Source of the DNA: a virus
Strand: one strand, 5' to 3'
Virus record (IMG/VR): IMGVR_UViG_3300021356_000143
Span: 1 to 26,286 of that record
DNA: 26,286 nt
Shown in pieces: positions 6,917 to 22,044 of the stretch (positions within the stretch are counted from its first letter, which is position 1; every line of letters begins with the position of its first letter). The translations under genes were made by a program, and so were the position numbers. The notes under the pieces were generated by a model that made no database searches, was not told the DNA's origin, and worked only from the letters and a program-made list of their open reading frames with translations.

Positions 6917-8443
6917 TCAGACTACATTGTCGAAAGCACCAGCGGTGAGACCCTCAGCACCGACTACACGAATGACTCTGTAGAAGCGTGAAGCGGGGTT
7001 GACCGCAACCTTACCGTAACGGGTAAGGATGCCCTTTCTGGGCTGGAAACTCTCGGGGTCAGTGATGGTGGGTAGGGCCTGGAAGGGGATGTATGGAGCA
7101 TACACAAAACCACCGTCCATGGGACCAGCACCTTTGTAACCCATGAGAAGTTCACCCTCTGGGTAGAGAGGATCAACAAAGAGATCGTAACGACCCATGA
7201 ACTTACCACGGAACTGGATAGTGCCAGGACCGAAGTTAGTTGGGGCGTCAGTGGCCTCGATACCACCAGTGAGGCGAGAAGCACTTTCTAGAAGAGTTGC
7301 CATGATTGGGGCACAGATAATCCAGTTACCAGCACCACGAAGAGTGGTCTTGTAAATGTCCTGTGAAGCGAAGTTAATCGTGGCAAGTAGGTTAGCGTAC
7401 TTGTCGCCAATGTGGCGAGGAGCGAAGGAACTGAAAGCATCAGCGGCAAAGTCGAAGAGAACAGTGTTCTGACCGACAGAGTAAGTTCCAGGAATACCAG
7501 TGATACCAGAACCAGTAGAACCCTCGAAGAGGAAATCACCAAACTGTGAGTCGGTGTTGGGGCCAGTGAAGTTACCCATCTGACCCTGGTTGGTGGCTTG
7601 GTCAAGCATGTCCTTGTTGTAAAGGTCACTAACCTCACCAGTGAGATCGTAAGCAAGACCGCGAAGGTTCTCGATGAGTTCACGGTCAACCTCTAGACGA
7701 ATCTCCTTACCGAGAATGTCGGTAAGTTCGCGCTCAAGATCAAGGTTGTGGTAAGCCTTAAGGTCCTGAGATGCTTCAAGAGTCCAGAGGGCACGCATCT
7801 TCTTGGTGCGTGCGATCACAGGCTGCTGCTCGATGGACATGGTAACCTCAGGGATACCAGTTCCAGTGAGGTTTTCACCAGCAGATACTGACCAACCCTG
7901 AGCGTAAGCACTCTCAGGCCAGTTAGCGATGGCAGAAGCCATGTTGCTACCAGTGGCGAAATCAGCAGATAGAGCAGAACCACCCATGTTGAGACCTGCA
8001 AGTCCAGCAAGTTCGTCAGCACTTGAGACCCCGCGAGCCTGGAAATCAGGCTCACCAGTGGTTAGACCACGGTAAGTGAGTTGGTACTTGCTGTATAGGT
8101 TCTGACGCTCACCACCGTAAACTCTAGCAGCACCAAGGTAGAAGACCTGTGAGACGGGACCGCTCATAGGCTGAACACTAACAAGGTTGTTAGCGATTAG
8201 TTCGGGGAATACCCGACGAACGAGAGGGAATGCAAACTTCTGGAAAGTACCAATGCTACCAACGGTAGTGGTGCCAACACCTACGGCGGCTTCGTCTAGA
8301 CGATCCTCCTGTTGGGCTGACTTGAGTTGGTTCTCCAGTAGTTGTGCAGTTACTCTCTTAGTGTAATCGTTTTCGATGCCGTCAAGTGCGGGACCCCACT
8401 TTTGCGTGAGTTCGTCGCTGGCACCCATTTCCATAATATCCAT
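6917..8443 (-). CDS. gp23: Major capsid protein (gp23-like)
   Basis: A 508-aa HK97-fold major head protein, close to T4 gp23 (521 aa). Hallmarks are FPLVRRVFPELIANNLVSVQ then PMSGPVSQVFYLGAAR, and the acidic/helical region around LEASQDLKAYHNLDLERELT. A propeptide is evident: residues 1-51 end in RLDE, an L-x-E site of the type cut by the gp21 protease (T4 gp23 is cut after Glu65), leaving a mature chain of about 457 residues starting AAVGVGTTTVGSIG. The start follows TTTTAGGAG with 8-nt spacing. Codon use is strongly biased, with few AT-ending codons compared with the fibre genes, as expected for the most abundant virion protein. A terminator follows directly. Confidence 0.97.
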   Translation of the reverse strand: MDIMEMGASDELTQKWGPALDGIENDYTKRVTAQLLENQLKSAQQEDRLDEAAVGVGTTTVGSIGTFQKFAFPLVRRVFPELIANNLVSVQPMSGPVSQVFYLGAARVYGGERQNLYSKYQLTYRGLTTGEPDFQARGVSSADELAGLAGLNMGGSALSADFATGSNMASAIANWPESAYAQGWSVSAGENLTGTGIPEVTMSIEQQPVIARTKKMRALWTLEASQDLKAYHNLDLERELTDILGKEIRLEVDRELIENLRGLAYDLTGEVSDLYNKDMLDQATNQGQMGNFTGPNTDSQFGDFLFEGSTGSGITGIPGTYSVGQNTVLFDFAADAFSSFAPRHIGDKYANLLATINFASQDIYKTTLRGAGNWIICAPIMATLLESASRLTGGIEATDAPTNFGPGTIQFRGKFMGRYDLFVDPLYPEGELLMGYKGAGPMDGGFVYAPYIPFQALPTITDPESFQPRKGILTRYGKVAVNPASRFYRVIRVVGAEGLTAGAFDNVV

Positions 8444-8468
8444 AACTACAACTCCTAAAAGTTTATGC

Positions 8469-9092
8469 TCACTTCATTAACTTGAGCATTTCTTCGGTTA
8501 AGAACTCGTTTCCAATACTTTCCAAGTTTTGATCCTCAACCTCTTCGTCTACATTTTCAGTAATGACCACAGCCTGCTCTGTAGACTCAAACAGGGTAGC
8601 CTCCTTTTCTTCTGCTAGTGTCTTAACGCTCTCGTTTAGTGATTCTATTTCAGTTTCACGCTTTGAGACCTTGGACTCTAACAGTTGAATTGTTTTAGCA
8701 AGACGCTCTTGCTCTCTAAGTGACTCGGAAAGTTCACGGGCAAGGACCTCGTTATCATTAACAAGATCACCAGCCTCTGAAAGCCTTCTCTCACTCTCTG
8801 CGTCAATGTGCTCAGGACGGAACTCAACAGCCATGAAGCCCATAAGTTCTCTAAATCTCTGTGCATCACGATATACATCGTTAGACTCATGTAGTTCCTC
8901 AAGGGCAGACTCTTGAATCTGTTGACGCTTCATGGATAAGTAAGCGAAAACCTTGTCGGTAAGTTCGCCAACTTCCTCCTGCACTCTTTCCTCAATTAGT
9001 TCCTGCATAACACCAGCGATTTCAACGATAGTATCTTCGGTGATGCCCTCAGGAAGTAACTGAGCAATGTTTTCTATTTTCTTTTTATCCAT
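8469..9092 (-). CDS. gp22: Prohead core scaffold protein (gp22-like)
   Basis: A 207-aa acidic, almost entirely helical protein, shorter than T4 gp22 (269 aa). Residues about 110-165 form a coiled-coil-like stretch (ARELSESLREQERLAKTIQL and following) rich in Leu/Glu/Lys. It should form the internal scaffold on which gp23 assembles and is expected to be degraded by gp21. Several L-x-E sites suitable for that protease are present (LPEG, LLES, LNES). Its place between gp21 and gp23 is the T4 order. The ATG follows TTGGAG, and the ribosome-binding site lies inside a small hairpin (9093-9107). Confidence 0.92.
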   Translation of the reverse strand: MDKKKIENIAQLLPEGITEDTIVEIAGVMQELIEERVQEEVGELTDKVFAYLSMKRQQIQESALEELHESNDVYRDAQRFRELMGFMAVEFRPEHIDAESERRLSEAGDLVNDNEVLARELSESLREQERLAKTIQLLESKVSKRETEIESLNESVKTLAEEKEATLFESTEQAVVITENVDEEVEDQNLESIGNEFLTEEMLKLMK

Positions 9093-9107
9093 GATTGTAC
9101 TCCAATC
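9093..9107 (-). promoter_or_regulatory. Small hairpin enclosing the gp22 ribosome-binding site
   Basis: Immediately before the gp22 ATG, the minus strand reads GATTG-GAGTA-CAATC, a 5-bp stem with a 5-nt loop. The GGAG of the ribosome-binding site straddles stem and loop. If transcription starts from the TATAGATA box at 9114-9121, the hairpin would be almost exactly at the mRNA 5' end. It could tune translation or protect the 5' end. The stem is short and AT-rich, so its stability is modest. Confidence 0.35.
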
Positions 9108-9113
9108 TATTGT

Positions 9114-9121
9114 TATCTATA
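9114..9121 (-). promoter_or_regulatory. Possible late promoter for gp22 (TATAGATA)
   Basis: The minus strand carries TATAGATA, one mismatch from the T4 late consensus TATAAATA, in the 57-nt gap between gp21 and gp22. A start about 6 nt downstream (near 9108) would give a 16-nt leader containing the gp22 ribosome-binding site. Plausible because scaffold and capsid proteins are needed in larger amounts than the protease, but unproven. Confidence 0.4.
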
Positions 9122-9149
9122 CAGTTATTATAGACTTATCAGTTTTTTA

Positions 9150-10460
9150 CTATTTTTTCTCGCCTCTTGCTTCGCCTGTAGGGTTCTCGTATGATATATT
9201 TGCTTGATTCTCTCTTCTCTTAGCCCTTTCTACAGCCTTTTGTCCTCTAGCAAATCTTTGTTTATTTCCAGATGCTCTGGCCGCACTTCTTTGAGCCATG
9301 GCTAATGAAGTTTCTACTCCTTTTTTTACATCAGGAGAACCTGATGCTCTTGCCTGAGCCTGCCTCCTTCTCGCAGAGTATGCTACAGTTCCTGGTTTAG
9401 GATCTTCACCCCGTCTCATTGCTCTAAGTTGGGCTGCTAATCTTTGTCTCTCAGGGTTTCCACCAGGAAATCTCGCCATTCTCTGTCCTGCTCTTTCGAT
9501 TAGAACACCTCCAAGGCGGGGGAAGACTCTTGAATCGCTGATTCCCGCCTGGGCGTCCGCTTGTTGAATATCCGTAGTGGACCTTGTGTTTTTTCTAGTT
9601 TCTCTTTTTTTTATTGCTTTTTGTTTTTGTATAGGACTAAGTGCTTCCTTAAGAGCAGCAAACTTGGACTTCTTTCCCTTCTTCATCTTCTTGCCTTTCT
9701 TGCCCATAGCAGCACCGATAGCCTTTCTACGGTTCTTAAGGTAACCGTCAGTGCCATCTACTTTACCATCGTTGTTGATGTCTGCATCTTCCTGACCAAC
9801 GGGATCGAGACCTCTGGAAGCCTTCTTCTTCTTAGCCTTCTTCATCTTGGCCTCGTTAAGGCTCTCAGTAAGAAGAGTTGAGAAGACCTTCTCCTTGGTT
9901 ACGCGAGGAAGAACCTCGTTCATGATCTCTTCTACAAGGAGGCTCTGTCTGCTTTGACGAGACTCTGATAGCGAGGGGAAGGCACCACGGGTTGAAGGAT
10001 CAGCAACAAGGTCCCAGGTAATAAGGCGGAAGTCCTCGTTGACATAACGCTTACCATCCTGACCCTCGGAGAGAGTGCCCATACCACGGGAAGAGATACC
10101 TACTTGAACACCACCTTCGATAAGTGCCTTGGCAACCTTACCCATGGGAGTGTCTAGTATCTCGGCCTCACCAATGATCTCGTTACCCTTAACATCTAGT
10201 TTAGTGATAAGGTGAGACACATTAGAAAGTTTAACGCTGTCATGCTGTGGGTGATCTAACTCTCCCATGAGACGGCGACCTTTCATGGACTCACATAGTT
10301 TTGTGATCTCACGCTCAAGCAAAGCCTTGGGATAGATACGACCATTGTTGTTCTCCTCGTCTGCACGCTGGAAAACACCACGGACTCTCATTGGTCCTGT
10401 CTTACCCTCATTAATGACCTGTAAGTTCTCGATAATAAATACATCTTCTAGTAACATCAT
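9150..10460 (-). CDS. gp21: Prohead core protease (gp21-like) with a long basic C-terminal extension
   Basis: Residues about 10-170 are the prohead protease domain. They include MGELDHPQHDS (candidate catalytic His70), GISSRGMGTL (candidate catalytic Ser123/124) and WDLVADPSTRGAFPS. The enzyme should cut prohead proteins after Glu in L/I-x-E and itself has such sites (VINE, LLTE, SLNE). T4 gp21 is only about 212 aa, while this is 436 aa. Residues 205-436 are unusually basic (61 Lys/Arg in 232) and contain one EF-hand/dockerin-like loop, DINNDGKVDGTD (227-238). From about residue 272 the lysine codons switch from nearly all AAG to nearly all AAA, suggesting a joined segment. The start overlaps the preceding stop (ATGATG after AAGGAG); the second ATG at 10457 has the better spacing. 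Confidence 0.92.
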   Translation of the reverse strand: MMLLEDVFIIENLQVINEGKTGPMRVRGVFQRADEENNNGRIYPKALLEREITKLCESMKGRRLMGELDHPQHDSVKLSNVSHLITKLDVKGNEIIGEAEILDTPMGKVAKALIEGGVQVGISSRGMGTLSEGQDGKRYVNEDFRLITWDLVADPSTRGAFPSLSESRQSRQSLLVEEIMNEVLPRVTKEKVFSTLLTESLNEAKMKKAKKKKASRGLDPVGQEDADINNDGKVDGTDGYLKNRRKAIGAAMGKKGKKMKKGKKSKFAALKEALSPIQKQKAIKKRETRKNTRSTTDIQQADAQAGISDSRVFPRLGGVLIERAGQRMARFPGGNPERQRLAAQLRAMRRGEDPKPGTVAYSARRRQAQARASGSPDVKKGVETSLAMAQRSAARASGNKQRFARGQKAVERAKRRENQANISYENPTGEARGEKK

Positions 10461-10909
10461 TTTCTCCTTTTGGCCTTGGCCTTATATTTTTTTGGTTGAT
10501 CCTTCTGCCTACGAGCGGCAGCCTTTAGTTTGCCTTCTGTAGCACCACCATGCTTAACCCTGGTCCTTGCTGCGTGGCTTCTGATACTCTTCCAGTCTGC
10601 ACTAGGAGTGGCACTTCCAGGAGTAAAACCCTTGGCAGTTCTACCAGAAACTCTCTGCTGCTTACTGTTACCCCAGCCACCTGCGGTAGTAACATACATT
10701 CTATACGATCCTTTCGTAGAGAATATACTTCCAGGCTTTGTCTTTGCAAGAGCGTCCTTGATAGTTTTATAAATAGGAACTCTACTCTTTCTAGCAGTTA
10801 GTTTATCTTTTCTCTTGTAGCCACCCCTACCTTGAGGGTATCTGCTAGATTTTTTTTCTTCTAACTTTTGCCCGTCTCTTAGACTTCTTACGGCGTTTAT
10901 CAGACTCAT
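10457..10909 (-). CDS. Small highly basic protein of the prohead gene cluster
   Basis: A 150-aa protein with 42 Lys/Arg residues and few acidic ones, probably nucleic-acid-binding or a partner of the acidic core. The central segment (about residues 50-90: GSIFSTKGSYRMYVTTAGGW and after) looks like a small folded unit; the ends are disordered-looking and basic, finishing AKAKRRK. I chose ATG 10909, which has an AGGAGG site at ideal 8-nt spacing, over the longer TTG start at 10927. The frame overlaps the end of the 139-aa gene by 65 nt and the gp21 start by 4 nt. In T4 the small core genes 67 and 68 occupy this position before 21, so a core role is likely, but I see no clear sequence match to them. 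Confidence 0.85.
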   Translation of the reverse strand: MSLINAVRSLRDGQKLEEKKSSRYPQGRGGYKRKDKLTARKSRVPIYKTIKDALAKTKPGSIFSTKGSYRMYVTTAGGWGNSKQQRVSGRTAKGFTPGSATPSADWKSIRSHAARTRVKHGGATEGKLKAAARRQKDQPKKYKAKAKRRK

Positions 10910-11264
10910 GGCTACATCCTCCTGCAAAGTTAGGAGCGCCTAGGCTCCCTACGGTTGTTGTTCCTACGCCTAACTCATTAAGGAGTTCTTTAAGTTCGTT
11001 AATCTTAACTTGAATCTGCTCCCTAATATGCTTCTGTCTTTCTTCTTGAAGGTTGACCTTATGTGATGAATCTCCTCCAACTCCAAAAGAATTAGAGAGA
11101 ACTGCATCAACATCCTCTTGAAGAACTTGTACATTCTCTATATCAGGCACATCACCCCTCACGGGGGCTTTGTGAGAAACAGGTGTGGGGTTAGACTGCT
11201 CTTGCTCTAATAGTTTTAGAGCAAAATCACCTACTCCCATACCTGTTTCATCAAGAGAAGCCAC
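10845..11264 (-). CDS. Small prohead-associated protein with a capsid-like motif and basic tail
   Basis: A 139-aa protein starting at GTG 11264 after GAGGATC (the site overlaps the previous stop codon). Residues 1-70 are acidic/polar, 70-97 a Lys/Glu helix ending LLNE, then GVGTTTVGSLG (99-109), and a very basic tail RRKKSKRRAKVRRKKI. The 11-residue motif is identical, apart from L for I, to the segment that begins just after the predicted cleavage site of the major capsid protein, and it too follows an L-x-E site. This points to a prohead protein processed by gp21. The last 21 residues are encoded within the 65-nt overlap with the next gene. No named family recognised; T4 gp67/gp68-like core proteins are the nearest positional analogues. 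Confidence 0.82.
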   Translation of the reverse strand: MASLDETGMGVGDFALKLLEQEQSNPTPVSHKAPVRGDVPDIENVQVLQEDVDAVLSNSFGVGGDSSHKVNLQEERQKHIREQIQVKINELKELLNELGVGTTTVGSLGAPNFAGGCSHESDKRRKKSKRRAKVRRKKI

Positions 11265-11794: not shown

Positions 11795-12142
11795 TTAGTG
11801 TATTCCTATTTGTGCTAATAAAGTTTCTAGGGGTTGGTTTGCAATAATTCTTCCATAAGCATGAGATCCACATGCAGCGGCAGCGCCGATGGAAACCATT
11901 TTACTTTGTCCTTGAATAGTGATGTTAATCAAGTCAGTAAGTTCGGGTATGCATGATTTAGGAGACTCATGCTCGAACCCATGAGTTCCAGCAAAAACAG
12001 AAGCATTATCTACATCCATAGCAAATAATTCCTGACCTCCTATAGTAACATTAGGAGTTGCCACAAGAGCACAGCCTTTAGGAGCACCAGCAGGATCAAT
12101 TACAGCGTCTCCAGTTATACAATATTCATTCATACTTCCCAT
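11795..12142 (-). CDS. PAAR-like spike tip protein
   Basis: A 115-aa protein whose strand pattern resembles PAAR proteins, which form the sharp metal-bound cone at the tip of contractile-tail spikes (T4 gp5.4, VgrG tips). It has GDAVIDPAG, then GCALVATPNVTIGGQ, a second NITIQGQSKMVSIG repeat and AACGSHAYGRI. Candidate metal ligands are H54, H58, C64, C91 and H94. The canonical early His is not obvious, so the metal site may be rearranged. ATG 12142 has GGAG at good spacing inside the end of the preceding gene, only 3 nt away. Its neighbour is the 1274-aa cysteine-rich virion protein, consistent with a baseplate hub location. PAAR assignment is by pattern and should be tested by structure prediction. 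Confidence 0.72.
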   Translation of the reverse strand: MGSMNEYCITGDAVIDPAGAPKGCALVATPNVTIGGQELFAMDVDNASVFAGTHGFEHESPKSCIPELTDLINITIQGQSKMVSIGAAAACGSHAYGRIIANQPLETLLAQIGIH

Positions 12143-15976: not shown

Positions 15977-18514
15977 TCAACTACCTAATGTCATAGTGCT
16001 TGTGCCATTAACAGTTCCCGTGCTTTGTGAGTTGATGTAACCAGCGTCTTGCCTGTATCCTGTAACAGTGAAACTTACAGTTGGGTAGTTAACCCACATT
16101 CCACCGAAAGAAGGACCTATATCTCGCACATTATTATGTGTGTGATTACCGCCTTCTATAACAGGTTTTGCATACTGAGAAGATGACCCTATGAAGTCGG
16201 TAATTATTCTAGAAGATACGAAACAGTAATTATAAGCGGGTCGATTTCTTATATTATACACAAAGTCGTCGTCAGTGGCTAGTGGTTTACAGAAAACCTG
16301 ATACCCTTGTCTAGGAGCAACAGGACCTGTATGTACAAATATGGTAAACCTATCGTGTTCTTTTTCAACAGTTACGCCACCGTAGTTTACCCCCAACATC
16401 CACTCTGGAGCGCCTCCGTTTTCTTCGGCACCTATGCCATTAGTTAACGAACAACTTATTAAAGATACATTAACATCGTAATCCTCGTAACCATCGGTAA
16501 GGCCATTAAGATATATTGTTTTCTTTACAAAGACTGAGCCGTTTTGAGCGATTACTCTCCAGCCCGGATTATTTCCGTGATAGAAACTTCCTCTAGCACG
16601 ATATCTTCCCTCAGGAGTGCCTGTCAAAGCGGTGATAGGTTCTGATTCACCTGTATTAGTATTCACCATTTGTATGTCTGTTAGTTCTTCATTGATGCTA
16701 ATTGGAGCGTTAGCACCAGAATTATAGCCCCACATTTGAGATGAGTGAAGTCTATCATTTCTATACAAACCAGGTTGATCTAGGCTTCCAAAGTAGTCAG
16801 TGTTGATATCCCATCCTGCGTGATAAGGTATTTGTGTTGCCGTAGACAAAACATGTTTTTTAGTTTTTAGGAAATTAAGAACCTCAGAATCACTAGTCCA
16901 ATCTACATCATTCTTATACTCTCCATAGGCTTTCTCAAGCATTAGAATGGCACCTTCTACGCCGTATCGGGTTCCTCCGTACACCATCCCTCTAGCCAAG
17001 GGCTTACTTTCTAGAGGAGCGGTGTTGAACTGCTCTTGTACAAAGTCTCTGACCTTGAACAAACCATCCTCCAGTTCTTGCTTACCTACAGCAGGATTAG
17101 CCAGAGAAAGAGGAGGGTTAGCAGCAGCGACACCTGCACGCTCGTTGTATGAGAGTTCAGTGGTTCTCATGAAAGGTCTAATATCGAAGAGATCGTTTGT
17201 TACGATCACAGGCTGACCTCTTCTGGAAATAACATATGCGACTGGTAGAATAGACTGTCCTACTAACGCTAAGTTGTTACTCTCTAAATTCTCCTCAAGA
17301 AGAGGAGTTAAGTTCATAAGATCATCTGGTGATGGGATGTTAGCGAACTCTCCATTAAGACCTATCTCGGTCTGTAGTTGATCTCCCATTGTGGAGTTCA
17401 TTTGGAAAGCACCATCATCATCAGCGTAAGTGTTTTCTGATATAAAGTGGTTGGTAGCAGTAGAAGATCCGTTGATATAAGTGCTGCTATCAAAGAATCC
17501 ACTATCGCTAGTGGTGTAGTTTGAGTAAGCACCAGTTCCAAGGTTCAAAGCAATAACGCCAGCGCCTTTTAGTATACCTAGTTGAGGTGCTGTAATCTTT
17601 TGTGGTGTACCTGTGCTAGAAGGTTTTACTATGGAAGTTGTTCTAGCATCAACGGGGTGAGAGTAAATGAATACTAAGTCTATTCTTACGGCAGGAGAAA
17701 ACTCAGTGTTGTTAGCAAAGGCAAACTCAGTATCATCGAAGGCAGGGACCTCTACGGATAGAACCTCCTGAACATCTACTACCGCAGTTCTAGCAACCCC
17801 TCCCCAAAGTCTAGTAAACTCGACAGCCTCTTGCTGTAAGTCGTTAAAGAAGAGTGTTCCTGTGTTAAGACCCTCAGGTCTCCAGGCTGCACCTTTGATC
17901 TTAGGAAGCCCGTAAATACCTTGACCTCCAGGGTTCACACTAGTCTCAATACCGCTTCTATACTCAAGGCTGTTTGGATCACCTTCTGGCTCTGAATTGT
18001 GGTGCTGCAAGAAGGTGTATAGACCGTTATCGTTAATTGCATCTAGTACAGTTATGCCTGCTAGTTTCTTCATCTGCTCTACAGATAAAGTGAACTTTCT
18101 CTTCTCTCTATTTCCTAAGGTAGCGTAACCACTTCTAGTCTGATTTGCTCCTACAAAAGTCTGAACATCATTACGAAGAAGATATTCAAAGTTGTTAAGA
18201 CCTTTCTCGTAAGCATCGTTGATCCTAGCACTGTACCTTCCTGGGTTAACATAAACTGTTCTGTCCGTTCCATTTACGAAAGGTCTTAGTTCTGCTAGGT
18301 CACTTCTTCCAATACCAGAAACGCTAAGGTTGTTTGCAATCTGATCTCTAAGGAATAGAATATTCTCCTCTAGTTGCTTGAGTGGAATGTTGTCTACTTC
18401 CCAATAGTAAGGGTCGTTACTCTTGAACATTCTCACTGGTTCTGTAAACTTGTGAGAACTTTCTACATACTGTTCAGAGGCAGAATTGAAAAGTGAATCG
18501 TTAAGATCAGCCAT
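15977..18514 (-). CDS. Large baseplate/fibre-type structural protein
   Basis: An 845-aa protein. The N-terminus carries DPYYWEVDNIPLKQLEENIL (residues 34-53), a motif shared with the 1172-aa neighbour (FYSWEQDNIPLYDLEERTDY) and, to my knowledge, typical of virion proteins of T4-like marine phages, probably a baseplate attachment module. VYVNPGRYSARINDAYEKG follows. The long middle is beta-rich with Asn/Gly/Ser/Thr. The C-terminal 100 residues include GGNHTHNN and a Thr/Ser/Gly-rich end (VNGTSTMTLGS), as seen in trimeric fibre or collar proteins. ATG 18514 follows AGGAG at 5-nt spacing. It is likely a baseplate wedge or fibre-connector protein, but which T4 part it replaces cannot be told from sequence alone. 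Confidence 0.88.
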   Translation of the reverse strand: MADLNDSLFNSASEQYVESSHKFTEPVRMFKSNDPYYWEVDNIPLKQLEENILFLRDQIANNLSVSGIGRSDLAELRPFVNGTDRTVYVNPGRYSARINDAYEKGLNNFEYLLRNDVQTFVGANQTRSGYATLGNREKRKFTLSVEQMKKLAGITVLDAINDNGLYTFLQHHNSEPEGDPNSLEYRSGIETSVNPGGQGIYGLPKIKGAAWRPEGLNTGTLFFNDLQQEAVEFTRLWGGVARTAVVDVQEVLSVEVPAFDDTEFAFANNTEFSPAVRIDLVFIYSHPVDARTTSIVKPSSTGTPQKITAPQLGILKGAGVIALNLGTGAYSNYTTSDSGFFDSSTYINGSSTATNHFISENTYADDDGAFQMNSTMGDQLQTEIGLNGEFANIPSPDDLMNLTPLLEENLESNNLALVGQSILPVAYVISRRGQPVIVTNDLFDIRPFMRTTELSYNERAGVAAANPPLSLANPAVGKQELEDGLFKVRDFVQEQFNTAPLESKPLARGMVYGGTRYGVEGAILMLEKAYGEYKNDVDWTSDSEVLNFLKTKKHVLSTATQIPYHAGWDINTDYFGSLDQPGLYRNDRLHSSQMWGYNSGANAPISINEELTDIQMVNTNTGESEPITALTGTPEGRYRARGSFYHGNNPGWRVIAQNGSVFVKKTIYLNGLTDGYEDYDVNVSLISCSLTNGIGAEENGGAPEWMLGVNYGGVTVEKEHDRFTIFVHTGPVAPRQGYQVFCKPLATDDDFVYNIRNRPAYNYCFVSSRIITDFIGSSSQYAKPVIEGGNHTHNNVRDIGPSFGGMWVNYPTVSFTVTGYRQDAGYINSQSTGTVNGTSTMTLGS

Positions 18515-18525
18515 GATGTCTCCTA

Positions 18526-21500
18526 TTAAATATCCTTATTGAAATCAAATATATTGTGCATCTTGAATCCTGCTCCGAACCCTGATGTCGCCAAACTAGC
18601 CGAGCCACCTTCTTCTGTTGTGGCCCTGTAAATATTTACAAGTTTAGGTCTACCTAGTATAGGTATAGATGCGTTTTTAGCGTTAGAGAATGTATTAGAT
18701 GCTGAATCGTCCAGCAATATATTATATCTCTCTGGGGTACAGAATCTTGCGGGGTGGTAATACCCTGATGGAATGAACCCAGAAACAATAACACCAGAGC
18801 CATCTATTTCATAAGCAGAAGGAGTTACTGAATGAAGCCCAAATGCGAAGGAATCCATAGCCCCTGATGTAGCCGAACAAGGACCAGATAGGAAGTATCC
18901 TTGTGCAAGAGTTTGGAAAGGTCTGTTGTCATAAGATGAGGGGTCTGCCCCTGAGTAAGACAATGATTTTGATACGGGATCGACTTCCATGTAAAGTCTG
19001 AAGATACCCCAGTTCTCATAGTTTGCACTAGTTCCGAATCCTAGACTGTTATCAGAACCAAACCTTTTTCTAGACCATGATTGGAAGTATTCGTTCTCAA
19101 GCGTGTTCTCCACAGACGATAGAGAACTACATGACGAACATCCTAGACCAAAGAAATCTAATATGGCTAGATTACCTAGAGGCATGTCCTCATAGTAACC
19201 CAACCCACTTACAGCATCCAGCCCTGCGAGATCAGGGTAACTTCCTGTGTTAGGGGTAAAGTTTCTCCACTGTGGAAGGTTCTTTACAAACCTTTGACCA
19301 CTGACATAAGGATCGTCGTTGAAAGCAGTATACGCTGCATCAGAGCAGTCGTAGGAACTACCATCATAATAAACTCCCCTAGGTCCATAATGACCAGCCT
19401 GAGAAGGATACAGCCCAGATACACTTAGATGAGACGAGTGTAGTGTTGAACCTCCCGCTATCGACCAAACTCTTAGGTCATTACATCCTCCAGCCTGTTC
19501 AAGGTAGGGATCCAAGAAGATACCGTCTGCAACTACAGGTCCTGGCATGAAGTTTACATTATCAACATTCACGGTGCTATTGTTAGTAGCCTTTACACAA
19601 ATGCCTCCATTAGAATAATTTCTCCAGTCTTCTATAGACATTGATACAGGGTCTCTTTCGAGATAACTGAAATGGACACCATTATCTAAAGGAGTTGTCG
19701 TAAATCTCCTTGGAGGAGTATTGTACCAGTAAAACACACTACCTGCTCCACCATGACCTCTAGAAGCCTGCCTATCTGGAGTTCCTATTCCTGTGTGTGG
19801 AAGGAATGTAAAGGATCCTGCACTGAAGTATTGATGATTATCCCCATAACCCCTCGAATCAATAGCAGAGAACACAGGGTCAGACGCTAAAGTTCCAGAC
19901 CAGCACGCCTCAAAGGACCCGAGGTCCTTCATGTCTATAGTGGAGTTATTGTTTGCAACCAAGCACCCTCCAATTCCATTAACATACACTGAAGTATGGT
20001 TCTCTGGCTTGTTTAGTTTGTATCCACTAACATCTAAAGTACCCTTACCAGTTAGAAGATGAGGAGTGATAGAAAGAGTGGAGTTATCATCACAGACTAT
20101 GGCCGCATCCATGTCAGTAATTGAAGTAGGTCCTGAGATGTTTATGGTGGAATTTCCAGTAAGGTGTATGTTAGAACCTACATTGTCTGCATTATATTCA
20201 TGAATAATGGTGGCACCGTTCTCATGGCCTCTAAGAACACAGGAAGATGACCTCTGTAGAAGCAAATGTTTTCCTCTAGCAGGGAAAACATTTGCATCAG
20301 ATCTTGTAGAGAAGGCACTGATAAGTTCAGCATCACTGTTAATTAATTCTACACCTGCTAAAGGACTATCATCTATACTATTGTTTCCAAAGGCAAACAA
20401 TAAACTAAACTCCCCATGCTTGTCAGGCATTTCATCAGCGTATTCAGGCTTGATCAGTGACTCTCTCGCTACAATATGCTGACCATTGTTTGAGTAAAAG
20501 TTTTTTGATAATTTATAAGCCTGACCGTTGATTGTCGCGTCTGGGAATGTAGTTGGGAGAACTAGTTGTTTGTTATACAGCAGCGTAGATCCATTGAGTC
20601 TTAGACCTTCCTTCGTGTGAGCATGTGCAATGATGTTATCAGTCTCTAATGTGGACTCATAAAGATCATAACCTCTTGTGTTATTGTATGCATCTAAGAA
20701 TCCTAATACAGATAGAGTTGAATTTGTTAAGTGATATGCTGTATCACAATGGTTTACATTAACCACAGACCCCGTTGATTGAGCAGCATTTACAGCCTCC
20801 CCTCCTTTTAGGATCGAGTTGGTTAATTTAATGCCGTATTTTTGCATACCTACGCATATCATACTATCAGTTGATTGGGCGTAAGTATCCTGTCCAAAGT
20901 TTATAACGGAGTTGTATGCTAAGATTCCGTAATCGTCTGCAACGCCCCTGTTATCAATATCGTAGTTTCTTGCTGAGAAGAATCTTCTGTTAAGAGTTAC
21001 ATCAGAGTTGTTAACTCTTAAACCAGCAACACCTGCGCGAGCGACACCACAGTTCTCAACAACAAGACCTTCACAAGAGTTGATATCAATACCGTAGTCG
21101 TTTAAGATCTCATAAGTTCCTGCGGTTCCACTTGCAGCGTTTACAAGGAAGCCTCTAATGTAAATAGGACCGTCACAATTACTAACCTTTATTCCAGATA
21201 TTCTATTACCTGTATAAATACCTATTAGATTATCAGACGATGCAAGGGTTGTTCTACCTGCATCCTCCGTAACTAAAGTTCCTTCTGGATATTGCGCTGA
21301 AGTGTCCGTTGTCGTATCATTAAATGGAGAGGTTCCTATGGTAACATCAGCGGCTGTAAATTGTGCTAGAGAAACAGTTGTCGTTAATTTATAAGTTCCA
21401 TCTCCTAGGCAAACATTAGTGTAAGGAGTCAGTTCTGTGTTATTAAACTCTGCGGCGTGCATAGACATGCCTGTATCAGAGTAGTAAAGGGACGAGGTAT

Positions 21501-22044
21501 TAGAACTTAGTAAAAGACAAGAAGTATCTCTTACCTGTGTGGCAAAGTTACCTGCTGCGTAAGTAGATCTAAGAGTACAGTTGCCTTTAGTTCCTGGACT
21601 CCCTACTACATCTCCAGACTCATAAAGAGTTCCATGGACTCTGTTAATAATCTCTAGAACACCGTTACCTACGCATTTAATGTTATCTAATTTTATATCA
21701 CCTAAATCTCCACTTACAGCAACTTCTATGAGAGTAGGGAACCTAATGATTTCAGGAAGAGCATCTATAGCATCATCGATGGTTGTGAATACATTAGTAG
21801 ATGCATCCAAATGTGTAGGGATATCAGAAGATACCGCAAGGACCAAGCCAGGAATTGATGATGTAGGCCACCCTAACTTCTCCCAAAGGTAGTCAGTTCT
21901 TTCTTCTAAATCATATAGTGGGATGTTATCCTGCTCCCATGAGTAGAAAGATGAACTATCAAACTTTGTTACAAAAGGGTTCCAGTAATCATATAGGTAA
22001 GCACCAGAACTTACAGAATAGAGATCGTCTGAGTAGAAAGCCAT
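18526..22044 (-). CDS. Large beta-helix tail fibre/tailspike-like protein
   Basis: A 1172-aa protein. Residues 33-58 contain the YSWEQDNIPLYDLEERTDYL attachment motif also found in the 845-aa protein. Residues about 75-700 show the repeating short-strand pattern of a right-handed parallel beta-helix, with runs such as GIKVSNCDGPIYIRGFLV, GLVVENCGVARAGVAGLRVN and YGIKLTNSILKGGEAVN, each roughly one rung long and often with an N-S/N-T turn. This architecture is typical of tailspikes and fibre stalks that touch or degrade surface glycans; no catalytic acids can be named from sequence. The C-terminal third is aromatic- and Gly/Ser-rich. Its start is 1 nt past the preceding stop, and it lacks a strong ribosome-binding site, suggesting coupling. 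Confidence 0.87.
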   Translation of the reverse strand: MAFYSDDLYSVSSGAYLYDYWNPFVTKFDSSSFYSWEQDNIPLYDLEERTDYLWEKLGWPTSSIPGLVLAVSSDIPTHLDASTNVFTTIDDAIDALPEIIRFPTLIEVAVSGDLGDIKLDNIKCVGNGVLEIINRVHGTLYESGDVVGSPGTKGNCTLRSTYAAGNFATQVRDTSCLLLSSNTSSLYYSDTGMSMHAAEFNNTELTPYTNVCLGDGTYKLTTTVSLAQFTAADVTIGTSPFNDTTTDTSAQYPEGTLVTEDAGRTTLASSDNLIGIYTGNRISGIKVSNCDGPIYIRGFLVNAASGTAGTYEILNDYGIDINSCEGLVVENCGVARAGVAGLRVNNSDVTLNRRFFSARNYDIDNRGVADDYGILAYNSVINFGQDTYAQSTDSMICVGMQKYGIKLTNSILKGGEAVNAAQSTGSVVNVNHCDTAYHLTNSTLSVLGFLDAYNNTRGYDLYESTLETDNIIAHAHTKEGLRLNGSTLLYNKQLVLPTTFPDATINGQAYKLSKNFYSNNGQHIVARESLIKPEYADEMPDKHGEFSLLFAFGNNSIDDSPLAGVELINSDAELISAFSTRSDANVFPARGKHLLLQRSSSCVLRGHENGATIIHEYNADNVGSNIHLTGNSTINISGPTSITDMDAAIVCDDNSTLSITPHLLTGKGTLDVSGYKLNKPENHTSVYVNGIGGCLVANNNSTIDMKDLGSFEACWSGTLASDPVFSAIDSRGYGDNHQYFSAGSFTFLPHTGIGTPDRQASRGHGGAGSVFYWYNTPPRRFTTTPLDNGVHFSYLERDPVSMSIEDWRNYSNGGICVKATNNSTVNVDNVNFMPGPVVADGIFLDPYLEQAGGCNDLRVWSIAGGSTLHSSHLSVSGLYPSQAGHYGPRGVYYDGSSYDCSDAAYTAFNDDPYVSGQRFVKNLPQWRNFTPNTGSYPDLAGLDAVSGLGYYEDMPLGNLAILDFFGLGCSSCSSLSSVENTLENEYFQSWSRKRFGSDNSLGFGTSANYENWGIFRLYMEVDPVSKSLSYSGADPSSYDNRPFQTLAQGYFLSGPCSATSGAMDSFAFGLHSVTPSAYEIDGSGVIVSGFIPSGYYHPARFCTPERYNILLDDSASNTFSNAKNASIPILGRPKLVNIYRATTEEGGSASLATSGFGAGFKMHNIFDFNKDI

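Follow-up and report, generated by a model that had tools for sequence, protein, structure and literature searches.

Why do two proteins of one phage head cluster, the major capsid protein (MCP) and a protein of 139 residues (here called sp), carry nearly the same eleven residues directly behind a candidate prohead protease site? The question arose from a first-pass annotation of the window, the whole stretch of 26,286 nucleotides that we analysed (positions 1 to 26,286 of IMG/VR virus record IMGVR_UViG_3300021356_000143). The annotation placed the motif GVGTTTVGS(I/L)G at residues 55-65 of MCP and 99-109 of sp, both just after an L-x-E tripeptide, and these positions proved correct. With a slash for the predicted cut, the context is DRLDE/AAV-GVGTTTVGSIG-TFQKF in MCP, where the motif lies three residues after the cut, and ELLNE/L-GVGTTTVGSLG-APNFAGG in sp, where it lies one residue after. 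Ten of the 11 residues are identical, and the same codon is used at only two of those ten (ACC and AGC). When 11-mers were compared over all pairs of the 19 window proteins, the MCP-sp match ranked top (10/11, score 53); the runner-up pair reached 8/11 with a score of 44, as did the best match in 30 shuffles of all window proteins. No further G(V/I)GTT was found in the six frames of the window.

The head cluster and its relatives

The minus strand of the window carries a cluster of head and tail genes (Table 1), with the portal gene outside the window. The MCP combines a Gp23 profile match over most of its length with a predicted L/I-x-E propeptide site, and each longer relative contig searched has a single open reading frame of the gp23 family. 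Its cleavage after LDE51 is expected by analogy with T4 gp23, and the gp21-type protease is presumed to cut both MCP and sp. The closest cultured phages are distant (capsid protein identity 28-31%); the phage belongs to a divergent, uncultured T4-like group, and the sp family is widespread in a large group of such phages.

Table 1. Coordinates of the head-cluster features discussed in the text.
Feature	Position	Strand	Basis
gp23-type major capsid protein (MCP), 508 aa	6917..8443	-	Pfam PF07068 1.8e-76, phrog_138 7.7e-78
Predicted capsid propeptide, residues 1-51, LDE at end (8291-8299)	8291..8443	-	E51 invariant in 36 aligned capsid proteins
MCP motif GVGTTTVGSIG, residues 55-65, start of predicted mature N-arm	8249..8281	-	
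Core/scaffold protein in gp22 position, 207 aa	8469..9092	-	Between protease and capsid gene
gp21-type prohead protease	9150..10460	-	PF03420 3.7e-25, phrog_207 4.4e-52
Basic protein in gp68 position, up to 156 aa, internal ATG at 10909	10457..10927	-	
sp, small head-cluster protein, 139 aa, GTG start	10845..11264	-	Same-position homologues
sp L-N-E, predicted gp21-type cleavage site after residue 97	10974..10982	-	E97 in 61/62
sp motif GVGTTTVGSLG, residues 99-109	10938..10970	-	
Remainder of predicted released sp peptide: APNFAGG, then polybasic tail (SDKRRKKSKRRAKVRRKKI)	10848..10937	-	
Acidic protein in gp67 position, 147 aa	11276..11719	-	No shared motif in 42 family members

Relatives were drawn from viral contigs by pattern search, and 62 distinct sp homologues entered the conservation counts. 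Because the search patterns mostly avoid the arm (the exception is one short pattern in each of two single-protein scans), this sample is hardly selected on the motif. The gene order acidic protein, sp, basic protein, gp21 protease, core, gp23 was found in 55 full clusters, and in 64 of 64 distinct loci with a readable flank sp preceded the genes for the protease, the core and the capsid protein. Thus sp adjoins the protease within a gp20-gp23-type head cluster, as the prohead core proteins of T4-type phages do.

Several other features of the window and its relatives were noted. The protease, at 436 residues, is about twice the size of T4 gp21 and has a long, very basic C-terminal extension, in which a DADINNDGKVDGTDGYL stretch resembles a calcium loop and matches phrog_4359, a family of unknown function. 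The 3' end of sp runs 65-83 nt into the basic 156-residue frame (10845-10927, minus strand). Among 61 relatives, 21 show more than 20 nt shared between the frames called for sp and for the basic protein, and the start assigned to the latter is tentative. The acidic protein contains a CPLC pair (HTCPLCES), present in several relatives, that resembles half a zinc finger. By eye, a 115-residue protein (11795-12142, minus strand) is like a PAAR-type tail tip, with no library match, and proteins of 845 and 1172 residues (15977-22044, minus strand) share YxWExDNIPL near both N-termini (8/11), a likeness that suggests paralogous baseplate or fibre parts. The GTDB genome Prochlorococcus sp. AG-409-P03, obtained from a single cell, includes a 130-kb contig that is one of the relatives (L103 / L131); the cell was possibly infected, which would give a clue to the host.

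An element limited to sp and the capsid protein

We looked for the motif within 20 residues after [LIVM]xE, and found it in 69 of 76 capsid proteins and 32 of 47 sp sequences, as against 0 of 219 distinct sequences from the core, protease, basic and acidic families of the head cluster. In a 112-kb relative, no protein besides capsid and sp contained it, and on this ground we reject a low-complexity GTT motif common to phage structural proteins at large. Alignment of the sp and capsid family profiles with hhalign gave a single block of 17 columns comprising L-x-E and GTTTxGxLG (P 1.6e-4). When each sp arm was scanned along the full capsid protein of its own genome, the N-arm was the best match in 48 of 61 genomes, compared with a mean of 9 for shuffled arms, and it was still best in 29 of 36 once relatives above 80% identity had been removed.

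Loss of the motif from homologues, which the first-pass annotation had named as evidence against its reading, was not seen. The glutamate of the site, E97, is the most conserved residue of sp (61 of 62 distinct homologues); G109 (57/62), G106 (55/62) and T103 (53/62) are also among the most conserved positions. At variable distance after E97 comes the pattern T, x, x, G, x, L/I, G, so that most sp proteins keep a T..G..G core. The L/I-x-E site is itself conserved, as in T4-type core proteins, with P3 mostly Leu or Ile, and Val or Met in 12 of 62. Such tripeptides are a weak signature alone, as there are 8 in sp and 17 in the core protein; what lends the sp cleavage site credit is its invariance among homologues, and not L-x-E as such.

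The predicted structure of sp consists of three helices with the arm and tail disordered, and gave no significant fold match. The site sits where the last predicted helix (72-99) ends and marks a reversal of charge: the net charge before it has a median of -9 and that after it a median of +8 (range 1 to 12; 57 homologues), the segment after the site being about 42 residues long. A predicted cut at LNE97 would therefore divide an acidic, helical N-terminal portion from a basic peptide that starts with the N-arm copy.

The letters of the two arms also match by lineage. The same YGPGTTTVGSIG occurs in both sp and the capsid protein of L007, GNIGV in both proteins of L186, AAATTTGQLGT / AAATTTGQIGT in the two proteins of L145, and TTVGKLGTFQKF / TTVGGIGTSQKF in those of L047. 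The copy in sp extends to GTxQKF in one lineage (two genomes), and the likeness is faint in several others (L046, L054, L058, L101). We then exchanged sp arms between paired relatives, and counted how often the match to the capsid arm was lowered or raised. The ratio was 10:4 for the nearest pairs (one-sided p 0.07-0.09) and 21:1 where identity was 70% or less (p 5e-6); two intermediate distances gave 12:4 (p 0.04) and, with identity up to 80%, 15:6 (p 0.014-0.04). Judged from these sequence comparisons, the two arms co-vary strongly from clade to clade but weakly inside a clade. Identical codons at shared residues numbered 135 of 334, with 146.5 expected from codon usage. Codon sharing was thus no higher than chance, ruling out recent duplication or gene conversion and bearing out the earlier view that the likeness is kept at the level of protein and owes nothing to recent DNA copying.

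Readings of the shared arm

From the likeness, its limit to two families, its conservation and its lineage matching, we infer, at a probability of roughly 45%, that sp belongs to the prohead core and that its basic C-terminal peptide, once cleaved off, docks as a mimic of the gp23 N-arm. The MCP motif aligns to about residues 83-92 of T4 gp23, at the border of N-fist and N-arm; the structure model of the capsid protein is poor (pLDDT 47.5). In T4 the N-arm and N-fist of gp23 contact neighbouring capsomers and move on expansion (PMC9958956). The gp21-type protease would cut sp after LNE97, as it would the capsid protein after LDE51, and the copied stretch would dock in place of a gp23 N-arm. 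Prior to cleavage, the docked arm would link the core protein to the shell's inner surface; afterwards, it would hold the basic tail at the shell, either next to the packaged DNA or in places that lack a gp23 arm, such as those surrounding the portal. Three observations count against docking: co-variation is weak among closely related pairs, the likeness is faint in several lineages, and the arms of T4 gp23 terminate on the outer side of the expanded shell (PMC9958956), to which a DNA-facing internal peptide would have to be reconciled. A narrower form of the proposal is tentative and less likely than not: the cleaved peptide might act as a decoy arm, filling N-arm sites that no capsid protein arm occupies (those near the portal, for instance). 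It would then fix a basic tail that faces the DNA, and would link cleavage during maturation with the expansion of the shell or the arrangement of the DNA. The first-pass suggestion of a shared docking peptide is the one favoured. Two-family specificity, conservation, lineage-matched letters, the GTxQKF extension and the N-fist/N-arm mapping all argue for it, while docking itself is a prediction from sequence.

The same sequence facts, namely the two-family limit, the profile block and the lineage letters, would also fit if both arms bind a third partner or each other (through arm-arm strands in expansion, the portal or a chaperone), with no mimicry of a site in the shell. That gp23 arms do meet other proteins is seen in T4, in which the N-arm is contacted at Met98 by the whisker of the portal (PMC7136217). 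The 112-kb relative, however, offered no candidate partner with a matching element, and we regard this explanation as possible but doubtful. The first-pass annotation had also offered the motif as a recognition element for the gp21 protease, in effect an exosite by which the enzyme finds sp and the capsid protein. The motif does stand close behind L-x-E in both proteins, and the hhalign block includes the site. We nevertheless consider a protease signal unlikely, because the L-x-E-rich proteins elsewhere in the cluster, which are likely substrates, are without the motif, because the P1' residue differs (Met in 43 of 62 sp proteins, Ala or Asp in MCP), and because the spacing from Glu to TTxG varies from 1 to 7 residues in sp and from 2 to 21 in MCP. 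In addition, the copy that reaches GTxQKF would go beyond the expected reach of protease subsites.

The order helix, L-x-E, arm in both proteins (allowing for the poor capsid model) could mean that the 5' end of the capsid gene was once duplicated in part, long ago, and that each copy has been constrained separately since. We hold such a relic to be improbable: the similarity ends at 17 columns, and the lineage-matched letters and the 21:1 swap result require a constraint that is shared. Chance likeness of Gly/Thr-rich sequence, which the short and low-complexity letters might invite, is for practical purposes refuted, since no shuffle equals the match and it recurs family-wide at homologous places.

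Docking by arm imitation, if it is the correct reading, bears on how core proteins are held against a T4-type shell, which is described as open (PMC9958956). A core-cluster protein with a conserved copy of the capsid arm, matched lineage by lineage, points to a probable core-shell contact and makes that contact testable. Furthermore, sp is a recognisable family for annotating the head clusters of uncultured T4-like phages.

Comparison with known systems

No sp was detected in cultured phages by tblastn with three diverse members as queries, and the protein has no Pfam or PHROG match. The sp profile gave nothing below E 0.78 against head-region frames of T4, cyanophage, Mel-JY01 and X1, nor was a counterpart found in the head clusters of T4, S-SSM5, Mel-JY01 and X1. 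A limited search of openly licensed literature found no description of the family. By description, RM378 is the only cultured Far-T4-like isolate (PMC7198788). In this Rhodothermus phage, Rm378p116 (L196:16321-17190), encoded directly upstream of gp21, reads IEE/MTTTGDIAGYD, and the capsid protein reads LME/TTQTTEVDGWN. Unlike sp, Rm378p116 has 289 residues and is acidic beyond the motif, and the match is non-significant; going by these letters, the two RM378 proteins are a possible distant counterpart of the sp-capsid pair.

In T4, the core proteins gp67, gp68 and IPI-III are cut by gp21. The sp gene resembles theirs in lying between the portal or acidic protein and the protease, and its product in having an L/I-x-E site and acidic and basic parts; it differs from gp67 and gp68 in showing no detectable sequence homology to them. 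In T4 IPII and IPIII the targeting peptide is at the N-terminus (PMC9958956), whereas in sp the conserved element comes after the predicted cut and reproduces the arm of the capsid protein. DarA of phage P1 is found inside the head, where the prohead protease cleaves it; it is seated on the inner shell, and its cleavage site is adjacent to the capsid protein's (PMC12810830). Unlike sp, DarA is a large defence protein, and the words 'motif' and 'mimic' do not occur in the text of PMC12810830. In SaPI1 CpmB and the 80alpha scaffolding protein, one short RIIK helix-and-hook motif binds the capsid protein (PMC5644958). The element reported here is of the same kind, being short, conserved and limited to two proteins, but that motif is common to two scaffolds and ours to sp and the capsid protein itself. 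As far as the available text describes them, neither DarA nor the CpmB/80alpha pair includes an internal protein that copies the capsid protein's own arm. If the reading proposed here is true, imitation of a capsid arm would be a new mode of attachment for an internal protein of the phage head.
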